This document shows, piece after piece, positions 56,178 through 61,840 of a DNA stretch of 64,000 nucleotides. Source of the stretch: Candidatus Nitrosocosmicus oleophilus (GTDB lineage: Archaea > Thermoproteota > Nitrososphaeria > Nitrososphaerales > Nitrososphaeraceae); NCBI RefSeq assembly GCF_000802205.1, contig NZ_CP012850.1, positions 3,250,587-3,314,586 on the forward strand. The letters are read 5' to 3'. Position 1 is the first letter of the stretch. Each line of letters starts with the position of its first letter. The position numbers were made by a program, and so were the translations under genes. The notes below the pieces were generated by a model. The model ran no database searches, was not told the DNA's origin, and worked only from the letters and a program-made list of their open reading frames with translations.

Positions 56178-57020
56178 CTATCTTTTTGCAATGGTCAATA
56201 GGTAACCCAATCCAATACTATTGTCAAAGACATAAGGACCTATTGCTTTCAAGAAATCATCTCTAAGTAAATCGGTTTCACTAGAATCACCGCGATTATT
56301 TAATATTTGAATAGTATTAATCAATGGTCCATATTTTGTACTCATAAACTCCCAAAAGTGATTTGGACTAAGAATCGGAAAGAGTGCTGTACCACGCTCA
56401 AAATGCACTTTTGATACTTCATTTAATCTTTTTTCTATTACTTCAGGAACACCCCAAAGTATTGGAGAAGGAGGACTATTAACTGGTTTAGGTAAATGTT
56501 TACCATTTGCTTTAAATATTGATCCAATCGCAAGCTCGGGTGGCCAAGTTGCGAATCCTATCCGACCACCTTTCTTTGTCACTCGCATCATTTCTTTGGC
56601 AACGAGGTCTGGCTGAGGGGCAAACATGTGTCCAAAGGTTGAAAGAACAACATCAAAGGATTCGTCCTCAAAGGGTAAATTCTGGGCATCACCCGCCCTC
56701 CATGTTATCCCATCAACCTGGGCAATTTTCGCTTCTTCTGCAGCAAGGTCTAATAGTTCCGTCGTGATATCAATTCCGGTTACATTTGCACCTATTCTCC
56801 CTGCCGTAATTGCAGTGTTTCCATTTCCGCAGGCGATGTCAAGAACATCCTCTCCAGATTGAACATTTATTGATCTCACCAGGTGAGAAGATATTGAAGG
56901 AAGCATCGTAGAGATACTACGATAATCCCCTAGTTTCCAAACATTCTCGGTTTTTTTATTTTTCAAACTTTCTTTTTCACTTGCTTCATTCTCTTTATTT
57001 GACAGATTTAATTGACTCAT
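56178..57020 (-). CDS. SAM-dependent methyltransferase, UbiE-like (copy 1)
   Basis: Class I methyltransferase. The SAM-binding motif VLDIACGNGNTAITAGRIGA is followed by the acidic ID (VTGIDITTELL), then WRAGDAQNLPFEDESFDVVL and motif IV STFGHMF, giving a UbiE/MenG-like pattern. The start chosen is ATG 57020 (MSQLNLSNKENEASEKE); 21 further upstream codons are open but run through two palindromes and are probably promoter. A close paralog lies at 58841-59656. The substrate is unknown. Confidence 0.85.
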   Translation of the reverse strand: MSQLNLSNKENEASEKESLKNKKTENVWKLGDYRSISTMLPSISSHLVRSINVQSGEDVLDIACGNGNTAITAGRIGANVTGIDITTELLDLAAEEAKIAQVDGITWRAGDAQNLPFEDESFDVVLSTFGHMFAPQPDLVAKEMMRVTKKGGRIGFATWPPELAIGSIFKANGKHLPKPVNSPPSPILWGVPEVIEKRLNEVSKVHFERGTALFPILSPNHFWEFMSTKYGPLINTIQILNNRGDSSETDLLRDDFLKAIGPYVFDNSIGLGYLLTIAKR

Positions 57021-57023
57021 ATT

Positions 57024-57041
57024 GTGATATCGTGATATCAC
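57024..57041. promoter_or_regulatory. operator-like palindrome 1
   Basis: GTGATATC-GT-GATATCAC is a perfect 8+8 inverted repeat just before the methyltransferase ATG. It lies where that gene's transcript should begin (its TATA box, ATTTATATG, centres near 57050 on the minus strand). Confidence 0.6.
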
Positions 57042-57060
57042 CATATAAATAGTTTTCTTT

Positions 57061-57082
57061 TGATGATATCTCGATATCATCA
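57061..57082. promoter_or_regulatory. operator-like palindrome 2
   Basis: TGATGATATC-TC-GATATCATCA is a perfect 10+10 inverted repeat directly upstream of the TATA box (CTTATATTG, about 57084-57092) of the RHH gene. It shares the GATATC-NN-GATATC core with palindrome 1; centres are 39 bp apart. Confidence 0.6.
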
Positions 57083-57112
57083 CTTATATTGCTCTGAAGA
57101 TTTCATAAAGTT

Positions 57113-57772
57113 ATGGCCCGTAACATGATAATCCGAGGCTTCGATGATGAGATTCACTCTCAACTTGGCGATCAATCAAAAAAGAAGGGTGTTTCCATAA
57201 ATTCAATTGTGAAGGACGCCGTGGATCAGTGGCTAAAAAAACAAGACGAAATACCAAAACGACACCATTTACTTCTATACGATAACGCGGAATCTGTGAT
57301 TCGAATGATCAAGTCATTAGATAAATTGGCCAAGGAAGGTGAATGGTTTAGATGTTTCGTACGGTCATCTAATTCTTCAGTTACAGAGGCACTAGAAAAA
57401 CTAGACTGGTTTGATGGGACAATAACACCATACAAGCCGTCTCAAAAAGATCCTCTGAATCATCTTAAAGACATATTGCAAAATATTTCGCAGAATTCTA
57501 ATAATAAAGAAATATGTTTACTTGATTTCCTCATCAATGATATTGCAGACTCTTCAATTAAGGAAGCATGCTTTCTTGAAAAAGAATATGACAAGAATAG
57601 ATTAGAGGGCCTAGTATTTTGTGCATATGATTTGAATAACATGTTTAAAGCTTCTACAACAGAAATGATAGAAATGTTCGAGTTACATGATCAGGTATTT
57701 ATCCTTAATGATGATCAGATTTACAAATTGCATTTGACCAAAGAAAATATGCATAAACTTTTCTTGAGCTAG
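57113..57772 (+). CDS. RHH regulator with MEDS/DcmR-like sensor domain
   Basis: Residues 1-45 form a CopG-like ribbon-helix-helix (RNMIIRGFDDEIHSQLGDQS then KKGVSINSIVKDAVDQWL). The remaining ~165 residues start HHLLLYDNAESVIRMIKSL and follow the MEDS (DcmR sensory) layout also seen in the protein at 59728, a domain proposed to sense small hydrocarbons or redox cofactors. ATG 57113 is 25 bases after a TATA box, so it is leaderless. The gene is divergent from a methyltransferase with two palindromes between, so it probably controls both genes. Confidence 0.75.
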   Translation: MARNMIIRGFDDEIHSQLGDQSKKKGVSINSIVKDAVDQWLKKQDEIPKRHHLLLYDNAESVIRMIKSLDKLAKEGEWFRCFVRSSNSSVTEALEKLDWFDGTITPYKPSQKDPLNHLKDILQNISQNSNNKEICLLDFLINDIADSSIKEACFLEKEYDKNRLEGLVFCAYDLNNMFKASTTEMIEMFELHDQVFILNDDQIYKLHLTKENMHKLFLS

Positions 57773-57972
57773 TGATATAAGCGAATAAGAAGATAGTACA
57801 GAAATCAAATATGAAATAATAAAAAATACCATATTAGATCCAACTAGATCCAAACATTTTAGATCCCCTTTTTTTGAAATAGTCGGACATTGTTACCGAT
57901 CTTTCAATTCATTAAATAGATAAAGATTATAAAATTCAATGTTTCTTAGAGTATAGTAAAAACAAAAAAAAT
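57773..57972. other. intergenic, no gene seen
   Basis: A T-rich run (57867-57876) could serve as terminator. Nothing else. Confidence 0.4.
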
Positions 57973-58239
57973 TTATTGTTGGCCTAGTGCCAAGTCGCCT
58001 AGTTGTTCTTGTAATTGTATTCCTACATTGTTACATGATGCTAAGGTAAATTCACCAGATACACATTGTGCATTCTGTTCGCTTGATTGACCTTGTTCAA
58101 TTCCCTGCTCTGCTTTGTTATGTTTACCTGTTGCAAATGCCATGTTATCTCCAAATGCTACGACTGAACCAACGAGAGCTGTAGCAATAAACATCATTGC
58201 AAATACTCCAATCTTACTAGTTTTTGTTATGTTACTCAT
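57973..58239 (-). CDS. small secreted glutamine-rich protein
   Basis: From ATG 58239 (MSNITKTSKIGVFAMMFIA) a signal peptide ends near AFA; the mature 55-residue chain is Gln-rich (KAEQGIEQGQSSEQNAQ) with two cysteines (CVSGEFTLASCNN), a likely disulfide. Its Q/N-rich tone and paired Cys match the broken gene at 52114. Probably extracytoplasmic; role unknown. Confidence 0.65.
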   Translation of the reverse strand: MSNITKTSKIGVFAMMFIATALVGSVVAFGDNMAFATGKHNKAEQGIEQGQSSEQNAQCVSGEFTLASCNNVGIQLQEQLGDLALGQQ

Positions 58240-58399
58240 TATAATCATAATGTATAGATGAAATTTATTATATCATAGTTTGGATACTCATTGCTATCAC
58301 ATTTCTATAAAATACTTAACCAGTAAAATATTCTGATAAATGATTTTGTGAAAATATTCAGATGATTATTTAGCATGAATGTATTGATTAGTCACACCC

Positions 58400-58470
58400 T
58401 CTCAAATTGGTTTGCCAAGGAGATCTAAAAAGGTAGAACCGATCAAGGTTTCCATTTCGCCAATTTGAGA
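58400..58470 (+). ncRNA. candidate hairpin leader upstream of the multiubiquitin gene
   Basis: TCTCAAATTGG (58400-58410) pairs perfectly with CCAATTTGAGA (58460-58470). Inside, AACC-GATCAA-GGTT forms a second stem. The 71-nt element ends about 50 bases before the ATG at 58519. It could be a 5' leader, a small RNA or, if double-stranded DNA matters, an extended binding site. Confidence 0.4.
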
Positions 58471-58518
58471 CCCCCTGTGCTAGTTTTATAAATTATGATC
58501 ACAATACTACATCATATA

Positions 58519-58758
58519 ATGGAATTAACGAAAGTTGAGAGAGAAAACAAAGTGTATGTAAATGATAAAGCAATAGTTCTGGATAAGAATGCCATCACTG
58601 CATCTGAATTATTAGAATTAGCTGGATTTTCATCCCTTGCGTATAATATTTACTTGGTTTTGGATAGAAAGAGGAAGAAGAGCAAATTGTTGGGTGAAAA
58701 TAAGAAAATTAAGGTTGAAACCGGAATGCGCTTTGATGCAACCTTAAAACAGACTTAG
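58519..58758 (+). CDS. stand-alone multiubiquitin-domain (Ub-fold) protein
   Basis: A single domain of about 79 residues from ATG 58519 (MELTKVERENKVYVNDKAIV). The pattern VYVNDKAIVLDKNAITASEL, LLELAGFSSLAYNIYLVLDR and KKIKVETGMRFDATL closely follows the Multiubiquitin family (beta-grasp). In bacteria these domains appear in arrays next to E1, E2 and JAB genes. Here it is alone and its tail (TLKQT) lacks a Gly-Gly end, so conjugation is doubtful. No E1/E2/JAB gene lies in the window. Upstream codons from 58495 are possible but less likely. Confidence 0.72.
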   Translation: MELTKVERENKVYVNDKAIVLDKNAITASELLELAGFSSLAYNIYLVLDRKRKKSKLLGENKKIKVETGMRFDATLKQT

Positions 58759-58840
58759 TTATGATATCACGGATAGATTAGACAATTTACTTTAGTTCTA
58801 GAATTTTCTTGTCAACTTTCTCAGGGAAAAGGTACTGTAA

Positions 58841-59656
58841 TTATACCTTCGTTGCCATTGTTAGCAAATAACCTAATCGCACTATATTATCATGTATGTA
58901 TGGTTCTATGGTTTTTAGATAGTCTTGTCTAATCAATTCTATTTTTTCCATTTTATTCTCCTCTTCAAGTGCCTGAATTAGTTGAATCAGTGAGCCTGAT
59001 TTTGTTGCCATCTCCTGCCAGTAGTGATTTGGGCTAAGGATAGCATATTCAACGGTATCCCTTTCAAAAAATATATCCTTCACATCACACAATAGTTCTT
59101 GAATTTTGTCCGGGATTCCCCACTGCATAGGGGACGGAGGAGGAGGTGTCATTGATTGGTTATTTTGAACAGTGGGTATATACTTTGATATCGTATCATA
59201 CATTCTTCCCCATGCAAGCTCTGGAGACCAAGTAGCAAAGCCTACGCGTCCACCTTTCTTGAGAACCCTTTGCATCTCGAATGCCGTTGCCTTTTGGTTT
59301 AATGCAAACATGTGACCAAATGTTGACAATACAATATCAAATGATTCATCTTCAAATGGAAGGCTTTCAGCGTTACCCTCTCTCCAATCAATCCCACTGA
59401 CTTTTGCAATGGACTCCTCCTCCTTTGCTTGAGCTAAAAGCTCAGGTGTAATGTCTATACCTGTCACCTTTGCACCGGCTCTGCGTGCAGTTATTGCAGT
59501 GTTACCGAATCCACACGCCACATCTAAAACAGAATATACAGGTTTAACATTAACAAGTCTTACTAACTTAGCTGAGACTGGAGAAATCACTTTGCCAATA
59601 CTTCTGTAATCACCTAAGGCCCATCTTTTCCTGATGCTCTGGTTTGAATTATTCAA
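58841..59656 (-). CDS. SAM-dependent methyltransferase, UbiE-like (copy 2)
   Basis: A paralog of the protein at 56178: both share KRWALGDYRSIGKVIS-like openings, VLDVACGFGNTAITARRAGA, WREGNAESLPFEDESFD and the STFGHMFA segment. At 271 residues it is complete. The start MNNSNQSIRKRW has no palindromic operators like copy 1, suggesting different control. It is the downstream neighbour of the tandem-MEDS gene (71-base gap) on the same strand. Confidence 0.85.
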   Translation of the reverse strand: MNNSNQSIRKRWALGDYRSIGKVISPVSAKLVRLVNVKPVYSVLDVACGFGNTAITARRAGAKVTGIDITPELLAQAKEEESIAKVSGIDWREGNAESLPFEDESFDIVLSTFGHMFALNQKATAFEMQRVLKKGGRVGFATWSPELAWGRMYDTISKYIPTVQNNQSMTPPPPSPMQWGIPDKIQELLCDVKDIFFERDTVEYAILSPNHYWQEMATKSGSLIQLIQALEEENKMEKIELIRQDYLKTIEPYIHDNIVRLGYLLTMATKV

Positions 59657-59727
59657 CCTAAAATCATGCCTCAGCTTAGCCTGATAAACTTTAATATTGT
59701 ATTCATGATGAGATACAGTAACAGGGC

Positions 59728-60924
59728 TTATAACATATACTCGTGAATCAATTTTCCATTGCTATCTATAATTACATCATGATTATGAATGAGTCTTGAA
59801 AGGAAAGCATTGAATGGATATCGATCAAGTAATGACTTTGGATATGGACACACATATGAACCGTCAAAAGGTTTTTCGTGCCACCAATCCTCCAGATTGA
59901 TGCATTCCTCAAAATGCTTGTTCTTAAGCAACAGAGTAGCACAATCTGCGGTTAAACGTATGTGCTTGTCCTTTCTGTTTATGTCTTGATTGGCTCTAAA
60001 AATCATTTCTTCTTTCAATTTATTAAAAGATTCTAAATTTCCTTCCATCGCATTAACATAATAAGGTACCAAGTCAATAACAATAAGATTTCCTTTTTCG
60101 ATGTTTTCTTGATAATTTGTAATCTGTGATGAAAAGTTTTCTAAATAGCTTTCATTTGCTAAACTAACAGAGGCGTGGATACATATCTGACCTCGTTTTA
60201 AGCCTTCGTTAATGTATGTTGAAACCGCCTTGTCTAAATCATCTTGTTTATCATATAAAAGAATGACATGCATATTGGCGCTAGGGTCAATCAACGCGTC
60301 ATAGTTCATTTCATTTATTAGTGTATGATTCTTTACCAACGTTCTAAAAGCTTCTGGACTTATCTCTTGCATCAAGCCTATTTCATAAGCACACAAAGTA
60401 TGTGTTGGATTGGAAGCACCTTTTTGTGTTGATTCATAGTTGATCAACGCCTCGTAATATTTCTTTTCAAAAAACGGTTTCATATCGTAAAAAGCTCGAA
60501 ATCTTTTTTTGCTGTCCATTGGTAAAACAAAATGACTACCTTCAATATTATCTTCATTCTCCATACTAGTATCATTATGCATCGGAGAAGGATTTTTGCT
60601 CATTGTCATCCCACCAGAGGGCGACAGCTTACCCGTTTCTAACATGTCACCAAAAAAATACCATTGGGTACTCGACAAGATAGTAATTACCCCATCATTT
60701 ACTAAGGTAGAGATATTGAATCGAAATTGACAAATCTTTTTTAGTCTTTCTATAATTTCTTCCTTAGAAAGGTCATCTGTTACAAACAAGATAGATTCAT
60801 CTTTTTCCAAACCCTCAATCAAAAATTGAAAACCAGCATCCAATTTCTCTTGACTATTAGAATAAATGGAAAATGCATGTGAAATATCATCATTCTTTTT
60901 GGGTTTATATACATTAATTGTCAA
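59728..60924 (-). CDS. tandem MEDS/DcmR-like sensory protein
   Basis: Two similar halves. Half 1 (about 15-205) has ISHAFSIYSNSQEKLDAGFQ, ILFVTDDLSKEEIIERL and a Gly/Ser-rich insert (about 110-130). Half 2 (about 215-398) opens NMHVILLYDKQDDLDKAVST. Each follows the MEDS layout (strand-helix with 'H-x-x-x-x-Y-x-x-x-x-x-L' opening), the sensor domain of DcmR and thaumarchaeal regulators. No DNA-binding domain is present. It precedes the second methyltransferase and may modulate it. Confidence 0.75.
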   Translation of the reverse strand: MTINVYKPKKNDDISHAFSIYSNSQEKLDAGFQFLIEGLEKDESILFVTDDLSKEEIIERLKKICQFRFNISTLVNDGVITILSSTQWYFFGDMLETGKLSPSGGMTMSKNPSPMHNDTSMENEDNIEGSHFVLPMDSKKRFRAFYDMKPFFEKKYYEALINYESTQKGASNPTHTLCAYEIGLMQEISPEAFRTLVKNHTLINEMNYDALIDPSANMHVILLYDKQDDLDKAVSTYINEGLKRGQICIHASVSLANESYLENFSSQITNYQENIEKGNLIVIDLVPYYVNAMEGNLESFNKLKEEMIFRANQDINRKDKHIRLTADCATLLLKNKHFEECINLEDWWHEKPFDGSYVCPYPKSLLDRYPFNAFLSRLIHNHDVIIDSNGKLIHEYML

Positions 60925-61036: not shown

Positions 61037-61840
61037 TTACTTTTCAATACTTGCGTTATTATACGCCTTCGCCAATACTTGGCTATTCAAAAGATCCCCT
61101 TGATTAAGATGTTGACTTGGATTTCCGATAGCTGAAGGCAGACTGGCAACCGGTGTTTGATTTGTTATTATGCTACCAATAGGAACAAGGGTATTATCCT
61201 GGATTTCAACTCCTACTACAATGCTTCCAAGCCTTATGACAACATTATTACCTATTTTTGAATCAAGTACTGCACTTTTTACTCCTACTATGGTGTTATT
61301 TCCAATCCAAACAGGTCCGTGGACTACTGAATCATGTGCTAGGCTTACATTGCCACCGATGAAAATAGCATATCCCTGATCAAACCTCGTATCATTTCCA
61401 AGTAGTCGTTCTCCATTTTGAGAGAATCTTTTGTTATCATTATTTATCCCAACTTTAACAGCATCAATAGCATGTAGTATGACACCATCTTGTATGTTAG
61501 AATAACCCCCGTTGTGAATTGGAACACCTTCATCTGCTCTGCAAACGGCTGTAGGGGCCACTAATACATCTTTCCCTATAAAGCAATCACCTATAACAAC
61601 GGCAAAGGGATGTATAAAAGCTGAATCAACAATTTTAGGAGAGAAAACATTTGAAACTACAAATGTTTTTACATTAGACATTATGTTAAGCCATTGGTTT
61701 GTTACTCTTGTGTCATTAGTTTCCTGTTCTAGTGCTAGTGGTCCTTGATGACCAACAAAGGCAATTATTTCCATTACTATTAAAGAGGTCATGATTGTTA
61801 TTTGTATAGTAATATTCTTCTTCTTTGTATTATTTCTCAT
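61037..61840 (-). CDS. secreted gamma-class carbonic anhydrase (Cam type)
   Basis: A signal peptide (about 8-30) leads to a left-handed beta-helix. The catalytic set of Cam is seen: R101, D103, E104 (VCRADEGVPIH, the acidic loop), Q117, and metal ligands H123, H169 and H174 (LAHDSVVHGP). The proton-shuttle Glu near the first His is Asp here (HAID). It would hydrate CO2 outside the cell, supplying bicarbonate for fixation. The final ~40 residues are Asn/Gln-rich. Confidence 0.9.
   Translation of the reverse strand: MRNNTKKKNITIQITIMTSLIVMEIIAFVGHQGPLALEQETNDTRVTNQWLNIMSNVKTFVVSNVFSPKIVDSAFIHPFAVVIGDCFIGKDVLVAPTAVCRADEGVPIHNGGYSNIQDGVILHAIDAVKVGINNDNKRFSQNGERLLGNDTRFDQGYAIFIGGNVSLAHDSVVHGPVWIGNNTIVGVKSAVLDSKIGNNVVIRLGSIVVGVEIQDNTLVPIGSIITNQTPVASLPSAIGNPSQHLNQGDLLNSQVLAKAYNNASIEK

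Follow-up and report, generated by a model that had tools for sequence, protein, structure and literature searches.

A predicted autoregulated switch with twin operators and exchangeable partner genes, built on a ribbon-helix-helix protein with a MEDS-like domain, in ammonia-oxidizing archaea

Five genes crowded into 5 kb of the chromosome of Candidatus Nitrosocosmicus oleophilus raise the question of whether they act jointly or whether only some of them belong together. The window, that is, the whole stretch of 64,000 nucleotides that was analysed (NZ_CP012850.1, positions 3,250,587 to 3,314,586), carries between positions 56178 and 60924 a ribbon-helix-helix (RHH) protein with a sensor-like C-terminal half (the RHH-sensor), two methyltransferases (MT1 and MT2), a ubiquitin-fold protein (Ub) and a MEDS protein (MEDS2), for which the first-pass annotation proposed a sense-and-methylate module. 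Comparison with related genomes indicates that this block is made of two unrelated neighbours and that its core is the divergent MT1/RHH-sensor pair. This core is very probably an autoregulated one-component switch, in which the RHH-sensor would act through two operators on exchangeable partners, mostly detoxification or repair enzymes. The comparative evidence for the regulator and its operators is strong, and repression and induction are likely. Genomes and loci are referred to below by handles (G### and L###, respectively), G000 being the window's own genome (3.43 Mb, one contig).

The key clue turned out to be the twin palindromes that had already been noticed in the divergent promoter, at 57026-57039 and 57065-57078. 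MT1 (56178-57020, minus strand) is recognized by Pfam and encodes a UbiE-like class I S-adenosylmethionine-dependent methyltransferase of 280 residues, its start (CAT at 57018-57020) being placed by orthologs. A GTG start at 57083 was rejected, as the GTG frame crosses both palindromes and orthologs begin at the ATG equivalent to 57020. Operator 1 (GATATCGTGATATC, 57026-57039) consists of two 6-bp boxes 8 bp apart and lies between the MT1 ATG, from which it is separated by a 5-bp gap, and the TATA-like box of MT1 (TATTTATAT on the minus strand, 57043-57051, about 26 bp from the ATG). Operator 2 (GATATCTCGATATC, 57065-57078), whose start is 39 bp from that of operator 1, is placed immediately 5' of the TATA-like box of the regulator (TTATATT, 57084-57090, plus strand, roughly 26 bp before the ATG), beyond which the RHH-sensor gene begins (57113-57772, plus strand). 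Both TATA-like boxes are recognized from the sequence and from the composition of aligned loci (n = 54 for the MT1 box) and would presumably function as such. The GATATC boxes at 57026, 57034, 57065 and 57073 thus form two pairs, with 8 bp within a pair and 39 bp between pairs. With at most one mismatch allowed, the window contains three matches to the palindrome where 0.47 would be expected (three are attained in 4 of 100 shuffles), and two of these matches, both in the MT1/RHH promoter, are exact. In the whole genome, GATATCNNGATATC has three exact copies, two of them being operators 1 and 2, and the palindromic places with at most one mismatch amount to 22: 15 inside open frames, the two operators, one before an MGMT gene and four intergenic ones without clear target. 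The third exact copy (G000:C1:2743614-2743627, L084) is intergenic and has no clear target gene.

This arrangement is not a peculiarity of the window. A consensus-free scan for two mutually similar palindromic 14-mers 33-41 bp apart was applied to 67 upstream regions, with 200 dinucleotide shuffles for each (L134 was excluded because of too little upstream DNA). Paired 14-bp sites (GATATCNNGATATC or variants of it) exceeded chance at p<=0.01 in 49 of the 67 regions, a number that rises to 54 at p<=0.05, and the start-to-start distances in the 49 regions were 35 bp (one), 36 (four), 37 (22), 38 (13) and 39 (nine). As the genomes are related and hence not independent, fewer separate events took place than these counts suggest; the counts nonetheless span soil and marine families. 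When degenerate pairs were searched for (G[AC]TA[TG]C boxes, at least 11/12 per site), the 64-kb window returned a single one, that of the MT1/RHH promoter. The 775,716 bases of locus DNA (overlaps included), which were mostly chosen for RHH, returned 55 in RHH promoters and seven elsewhere, five of the latter (L021, L067, L074, L094, L101) being no more than about 300 bp away from an RHH gene; the genome-wide site search covers G000 only.

Operators and regulator also vary together. When the ribbon is numbered so that its Arg is position 8, Thr at position 4 is accompanied by GCTAGC or GATAGC/GCTATC in 28 of 32 boxes, and Asn or Asp at the same position by GATATC in 119 of 172. His, Ser and Tyr at position 6, each found at one locus, go with GGTACC-, GCTAGC- and GCAAGC-type sites, respectively, in other registers, which makes non-canonical sites 3 of 3 at these loci against 2 of 51 at the others (Fisher 4e-4, uncorrected for relatedness). 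Under the same reservation, this covariation is the pattern that a direct contact between protein and DNA would give. The marine homolog at L125, with His at ribbon position 6, has GGTACC boxes in two pairs 36 bp apart.

At the protein level, the RHH-sensor (219 residues) is composed of an RHH domain (about residues 1-44) and a RecA/KaiC-type, MEDS-like domain (about 48-216), as defined by Pfam ParG, structural models and orthologs. Its N-terminus matches ParG with 25.1 bits against a cut-off of 21.4, which makes it an RHH member, and the top Pfam matches in this part are ParG and FitA-type antitoxin RHH. In eight other members of the family the ParG profile stays under the cut-off in seven and gives no match in one. 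The AlphaFold2 model (mean predicted local distance difference test score 85.5) shows helices at 12-25 and 29-44, the ribbon being of low confidence. Among the invariant residues of 33 RHH-sensor sequences are R8, H51, Y56, W99, D143, G166, C170 and H192, and in 39 sequences, marine members included, R8, H51, Y56, W99, S148, G166, C170 and H192 are invariant.

Two MEDS sensors, one of them fused to RHH, had been predicted at this locus. The prediction is correct for MEDS2 (PF14417, 85.3 bits) and for the RHH part; the other half of the RHH protein is only MEDS-like. No PF14417 match at E<=1 is obtained with the window RHH-sensor or with eight relatives, which leaves it outside the Pfam definition of MEDS, and no Pfam family reaches its cut-off on the C-terminal domain. 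The MEDS motif (H-x4-Y at strand 1, E...CxY and a final H) is present in RHH-sensors as H51, Y56, C170 and H192; in 22 MEDS domains E131, C145 and Y147 are invariant and H5 almost so. In profile comparisons with hhalign, the C-terminal domain aligns to MEDS at 90% (E 1.6e-6), the alignment being limited to the final 50 columns, which correspond to the E...CxY...H end; an earlier comparison with shallow alignments had been weak (35%, E 4e-4). Residues 47-208 of the model belong to the RecA/KaiC class (2ekd, Z 12.6, root-mean-square deviation 3.1 over 153 residues; 2w0m, Z 11.7; KaiC, Z about 11), as Foldseek also finds. When a MEDS domain that Pfam does recognize (window 59731-60282) is modelled, its matches are FlaH (Z 14.8), KaiC (Z 13.9) and 2ekd (Z 12.4), and the order of strands and helices is alike in the two models. 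These structural matches reflect a common fold only and carry no information on the ligand; no P-loop motif was seen in the RHH-sensor sequence. By motif, profile comparison and fold, the C-terminal domain of the RHH-sensor is MEDS-like, without being a PF14417 member.

Where is this regulator found, and what does it accompany? Orthologs are present in 32 of 70 family genomes (11 of 12 genera) and in 47 of 300 sampled class genomes, all 47 belonging to three families of one order, with soil and marine ammonia oxidizers. Archaeal AmoA is detected in 43 of the 47 against 201 of 300 overall, a comparison which assumes that both 300-genome draws are identical, as their handles agree; the genomes without an AmoA match are G015 (95% complete) and G057, G312 and G322 (78-87% complete). 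The co-occurrence with AmoA and the restriction to three families therefore confine the RHH-sensor, though patchily, to ammonia-oxidizer lineages. Its divergent partners, classified by motif (n = 67), are OsmC (22), MGMT (9), UbiE-like methyltransferases (8, or 9 with L075), alpha/beta hydrolases (5), ArsR-type helix-turn-helix proteins (5), Rv2258c-like methyltransferases (3), HisKA (1) and others (12, including L075), two loci having none. Pfam checks on one or two representatives of each confirmed OsmC (PF02566), MGMT (PF01035) and Abhydrolase (PF00561), as well as HTH_65 plus methyltransferase, HTH_5 and SCO4226-like partners. On this comparative evidence, the regulator and its promoter layout are kept across ammonia-oxidizing archaea while the partner, mostly a detoxification or repair enzyme, is exchanged. 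In the OsmC partners at L089, L074 and L112 the first OsmC cysteine is kept (GCLTT/GCVTT), and Ser-Pro-Val stands at what we take to be the position of the second one; a classical two-cysteine peroxidase is therefore doubtful for these three proteins.

Regulation may extend beyond the divergent partner. Unlinked MGMT genes have one full-match site upstream of TATA in 6 of the 11 evaluable genomes of the genus (present in G000, G016, G009, G006, G005 and G017; absent in G008, G018, G007, G013 and G014), leaving outside the count G011 (cut), G015 (MGMT linked to RHH) and G010 and G012 (no MGMT match at threshold). An MT1-linked RHH gene occurs in all six genomes with the site against one of the five without it, G007 (Fisher 7/462 = 0.015, one-sided, by hand, uncorrected for relatedness). 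MGMT is linked to the regulator in other genera and has its own site here, and thus it is, on independent grounds, a likely in-trans target. Three more distant OsmC genes that are not linked to RHH (L197, L200, L201) have no site.

The geometry of the promoters suggests how the switch might work. In the 54 aligned loci each site is followed by a TATA-like sequence, towards the partner in the case of site 1 and towards the regulator in that of site 2. Site 1 stands 5-8 bp from the partner ATG in 41 of the 54 footprinted loci, and in 46 of them the distance falls within 3-14 bp. Site 1 is therefore enclosed between the partner's TATA and its ATG, and site 2 borders the TATA of the regulator on its upstream side. 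A divergent RHH gene is found at 9 of 15 MT1-type loci (at least 60% identity) and is lacking at four, the other two being at contig ends; in G008 and G018, where MT1 does not adjoin RHH, a like site is still directly 5' of the MT1 ATG. The unlinked MT1-type genes G010:C173 and G051:C145 have no site of at least 10/12. Promoters were also checked at 22 methyltransferase homologs that are unlinked or more distant: 21 contain no tandem site of at least 10/12 within 250 bp, and L082 has a weak one (10/12) at 193 bp upstream. We infer leaderless promoters and physical binding of the RHH-sensor to both operators, most likely as one RHH dimer per 6-bp box and so as a dimer pair per operator. At operator 1 the protein would lie between the partner TATA and the start codon and block the partner promoter; at operator 2, adjoining its own TATA box from upstream, it would set its own level. 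A small molecule accommodated in the MEDS-like domain, with its invariant His51, Tyr56, Cys170 and His192, would alter DNA binding and induce the partner. The predicted targets in G000 are MT1, the regulator itself and the unlinked MGMT gene.

The best surviving alternative, which we regard as rather improbable, is that the ligand-bound RHH-sensor turns the partner on by recruiting TBP/TFB. Archaeal activators have their site directly upstream of the TATA box, which is where operator 2 and likewise the MGMT-promoter sites are found; operator 1, however, is located between the TATA-like box and the partner ATG, and this position, so close to the ATG at most loci, suits steric repression. Several other observations weigh against a repressor switch of this kind. 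The conservation of the sites does not distinguish repression from activation, and the MEDS-like domain falls under Pfam detection. As many as 13 of the 67 regions fail p<=0.05: by eye, L066, L087, L122, L124 and L133 hold two degenerate sub-threshold sites, L083, L094, L106 and L123 hold one clear site, and L127, L128 and L129 have no site near the start (that of L129 having been misplaced by the script). At L021 the pair lies downstream of RHH, before a following methyltransferase gene, with none upstream of RHH, and G018 has no RHH match, yet three tandem GATATC boxes precede its MT1 ATG (L079, G018:C16). In addition, the RHH-sensor gene is broken in the two nearest relatives, by a frameshift giving two frames in G016 (L076, G016:C222) and by an internal stop in G009 (G009:C358, L075). 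As these assemblies are fragmented, an assembly error is possible, and G009 has an intact second copy. At both L076 and L075 the two operators are intact despite the disrupted gene.

The original proposal, in which the products of all five genes (RHH-sensor, MT1, Ub, MT2, MEDS2) work jointly with methylation as the output, is highly improbable. It draws on the presence of five genes in 5 kb, on each methyltransferase adjoining a MEDS-type protein and on the retention of the block in G016 and G009. Nevertheless, Ub, MT2 and MEDS2 occur together in four genomes only, G011 and G006 keep Ub without MT1/RHH there, and the window's sole operator pair belongs to the MT1/RHH promoter. Sensing survives from that proposal as the idea of a sensing switch; methylation does not emerge as a common theme, most partners being OsmC, MGMT, hydrolases or others. 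Conserved linkage, on which the module depended, is seen for the RHH/MT1 pair and not for the larger block: of the 14 loci with a strong Ub match (E<1e-20), four have MT2/MEDS2 next to Ub and three have RHH there. The five-gene module was consequently rejected on linkage across related genomes, and the Ub gene and the MT2/MEDS2 pair are judged, from the same comparisons, to be chance neighbours of the MT1/RHH core. A toxin-antitoxin-like or partition system, in which the RHH protein would be an autoregulator of the antitoxin or ParG type and its partner a toxin or cargo, is just as improbable as the five-gene module. The ParG and FitA-type matches and the tandem autoregulatory sites, typical of such RHH proteins, lend it some colour. 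Against it, the genes are divergent and form no operon, the partners are known enzyme families and the nine proteins covered by the Pfam scan of the neighbourhood (54.7-61.8 kb of the window) include no ParA-type or toxin gene.

Regarding the neighbours themselves, MT1 and MT2 (58841-59656, minus strand, downstream of MEDS2) are, as first annotated, UbiE-like paralogs, with PF08241 matches of E 3.7e-23 and 1.1e-22 and 55% identity. Neither is a UbiE/MenG member, TIGR01934 giving 78.7 bits for MT1 and 76.1 for MT2 against an NCBIfam cut-off of 158.35; MT1 as a true UbiE was rejected on these scores, both proteins falling in a generic UbiE-like group, and a PDB sequence search with MT1 returned generic methyltransferases only (MitM, YcgJ and others). 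MEDS2 (59728-60924, minus strand) has tandem MEDS domains recognized by Pfam, with no DNA-binding domain found, and is codirectional with MT2 across a 71-bp gap. The MEDS-methyltransferase pairing does occur twice here, as had been pointed out; the second pair is seen only in the close relatives G000, G016, G009 and G011 and is judged to lie outside the switch. MT2 is in two frames in G011 (L077), and MEDS2 homologs at L137 and L138 have no recognisable methyltransferase neighbour. PF14417 is expanded, with 13 matches in G000, 18 in G026 and 36 of 41 family genomes positive, and because MEDS genes are so common in the family a nearby one is weak evidence.

The Ub gene (58495-58758, plus strand; the start may be the ATG at 58519) encodes the stand-alone multiubiquitin-fold protein reported initially, with 87 residues and 29.0 bits for Multi_ubiq (PF14452, cut-off 24.5). 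Multiubiquitin operons combine Multi_ubiq with E1/E2/JAB-type genes. They have PF14452 in common with Ub, which is unlike them in its single domain, in lacking a C-terminal Gly-Gly and in having no E1, E2 or JAB gene among the nine scanned neighbours, and a multiubiquitin conjugation operon is therefore not recognized. Single Multi_ubiq proteins form a family in Nitrosocosmicus (the window gene; L036, L045-L047), with three copies in G008. A small protein of 91 residues with a hydrophobic stretch at its N-terminus (57973-58248, minus strand; also L077 6497-6772 and L085 5375-5650) has no Pfam match, is strongly conserved beside Ub in several species and travels with Ub, not with the switch. 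In G011 and G006 it adjoins Ub and is followed by a homolog of the 55729-56115 gene, a different gene occupying the MT1/RHH place. Further along, window 61037-61840 encodes a left-handed beta-helix protein of the gamma-type carbonic anhydrase/CcmM-like kind, which scores 161.7 bits with NCBIfam carb_anhyd, below the cut-off of 380.

As to the signal, MEDS proteins are found with genes of alkene/epoxide oxidation, and small hydrocarbon derivatives have been proposed as what the MEDS domain senses (PMC11507031, PMC8784404). Known MEDS regulators, together with the OsmC, MGMT and hydrolase partners, suggest reactive organic compounds as the signal. A more specific and only tentative idea, which is rather unlikely to hold, is that the switch serves as an alarm for electrophiles: ammonia monooxygenase would oxidize alkenes and other hydrocarbons as a side reaction, yielding epoxides and comparable alkylating compounds, which the MEDS-like pocket would sense so that each lineage's plugged-in scavenger or repair enzyme (OsmC, MGMT, epoxide-hydrolase-like protein or methyltransferase) is turned on. 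No paper on co-oxidation or epoxides in ammonia-oxidizing archaea was found in a literature search that covered few subscription journals.

Further searches, which covered MEDS/DcmR, archaea, Nitrosocosmicus, Nitrosopumilus OsmC and regulators of ammonia-oxidizing archaea in titles and abstract beginnings, with few subscription journals, returned no description of the regulator, nor of any sequence-specific switch of this kind in these organisms. In the parts of the texts available, a MEDS protein is noted in N. arcticus (PMC13006922), and OsmC is mentioned in a figure legend only (PMC7554672). The system matters because a single regulator family, whose site can be read, whose promoter layout is fixed and whose targets are exchanged, can be traced through soil and marine lineages. 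Its predicted binding sites lend themselves to direct testing, and DNA-alkylation repair, OsmC and methyltransferases are joined in one predicted regulon. It offers a route to the small molecule against which ammonia-oxidizing archaea must defend themselves and a natural data set for the joint change of an RHH protein and its operator.

Among known systems, the MetJ/CopG/ParG-type repressors have the RHH domain in common with this regulator, and its boxes recur every 8 bp as they do in MetJ operators; unlike in those repressors, RHH is here fused to a MEDS-like sensor, and two operators 36-39 bp apart would serve two divergent promoters. DcmR binds DNA through a helix-turn-helix, in contrast to the RHH half found here. 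The dcmR and dcmA genes of Methylorubrum (Methylobacterium) DM4, involved in dichloromethane use, are divergent and have a common motif in both promoters (PMC9320726). The likeness is close, as both systems present a MEDS-type regulator, a divergent detoxification enzyme and a motif shared by both promoters; DcmR/dcmA differs in its motif, GATC(C/G)ATAGCCT, in its bacterial promoters and in having one enzyme rather than an exchanged partner. With EtnR1/EtnR2 and other MEDS-helix-turn-helix regulators the common element is MEDS sensing, the EtnR systems having no RHH, and EtnR2 is a MEDS protein thought to act with a separate CdaR-type DNA-binding protein, unlike the fused RHH-sensor. The RHH-sensor is accordingly filed as a variant of the one-component MEDS regulators in which RHH takes the DNA-binding role.

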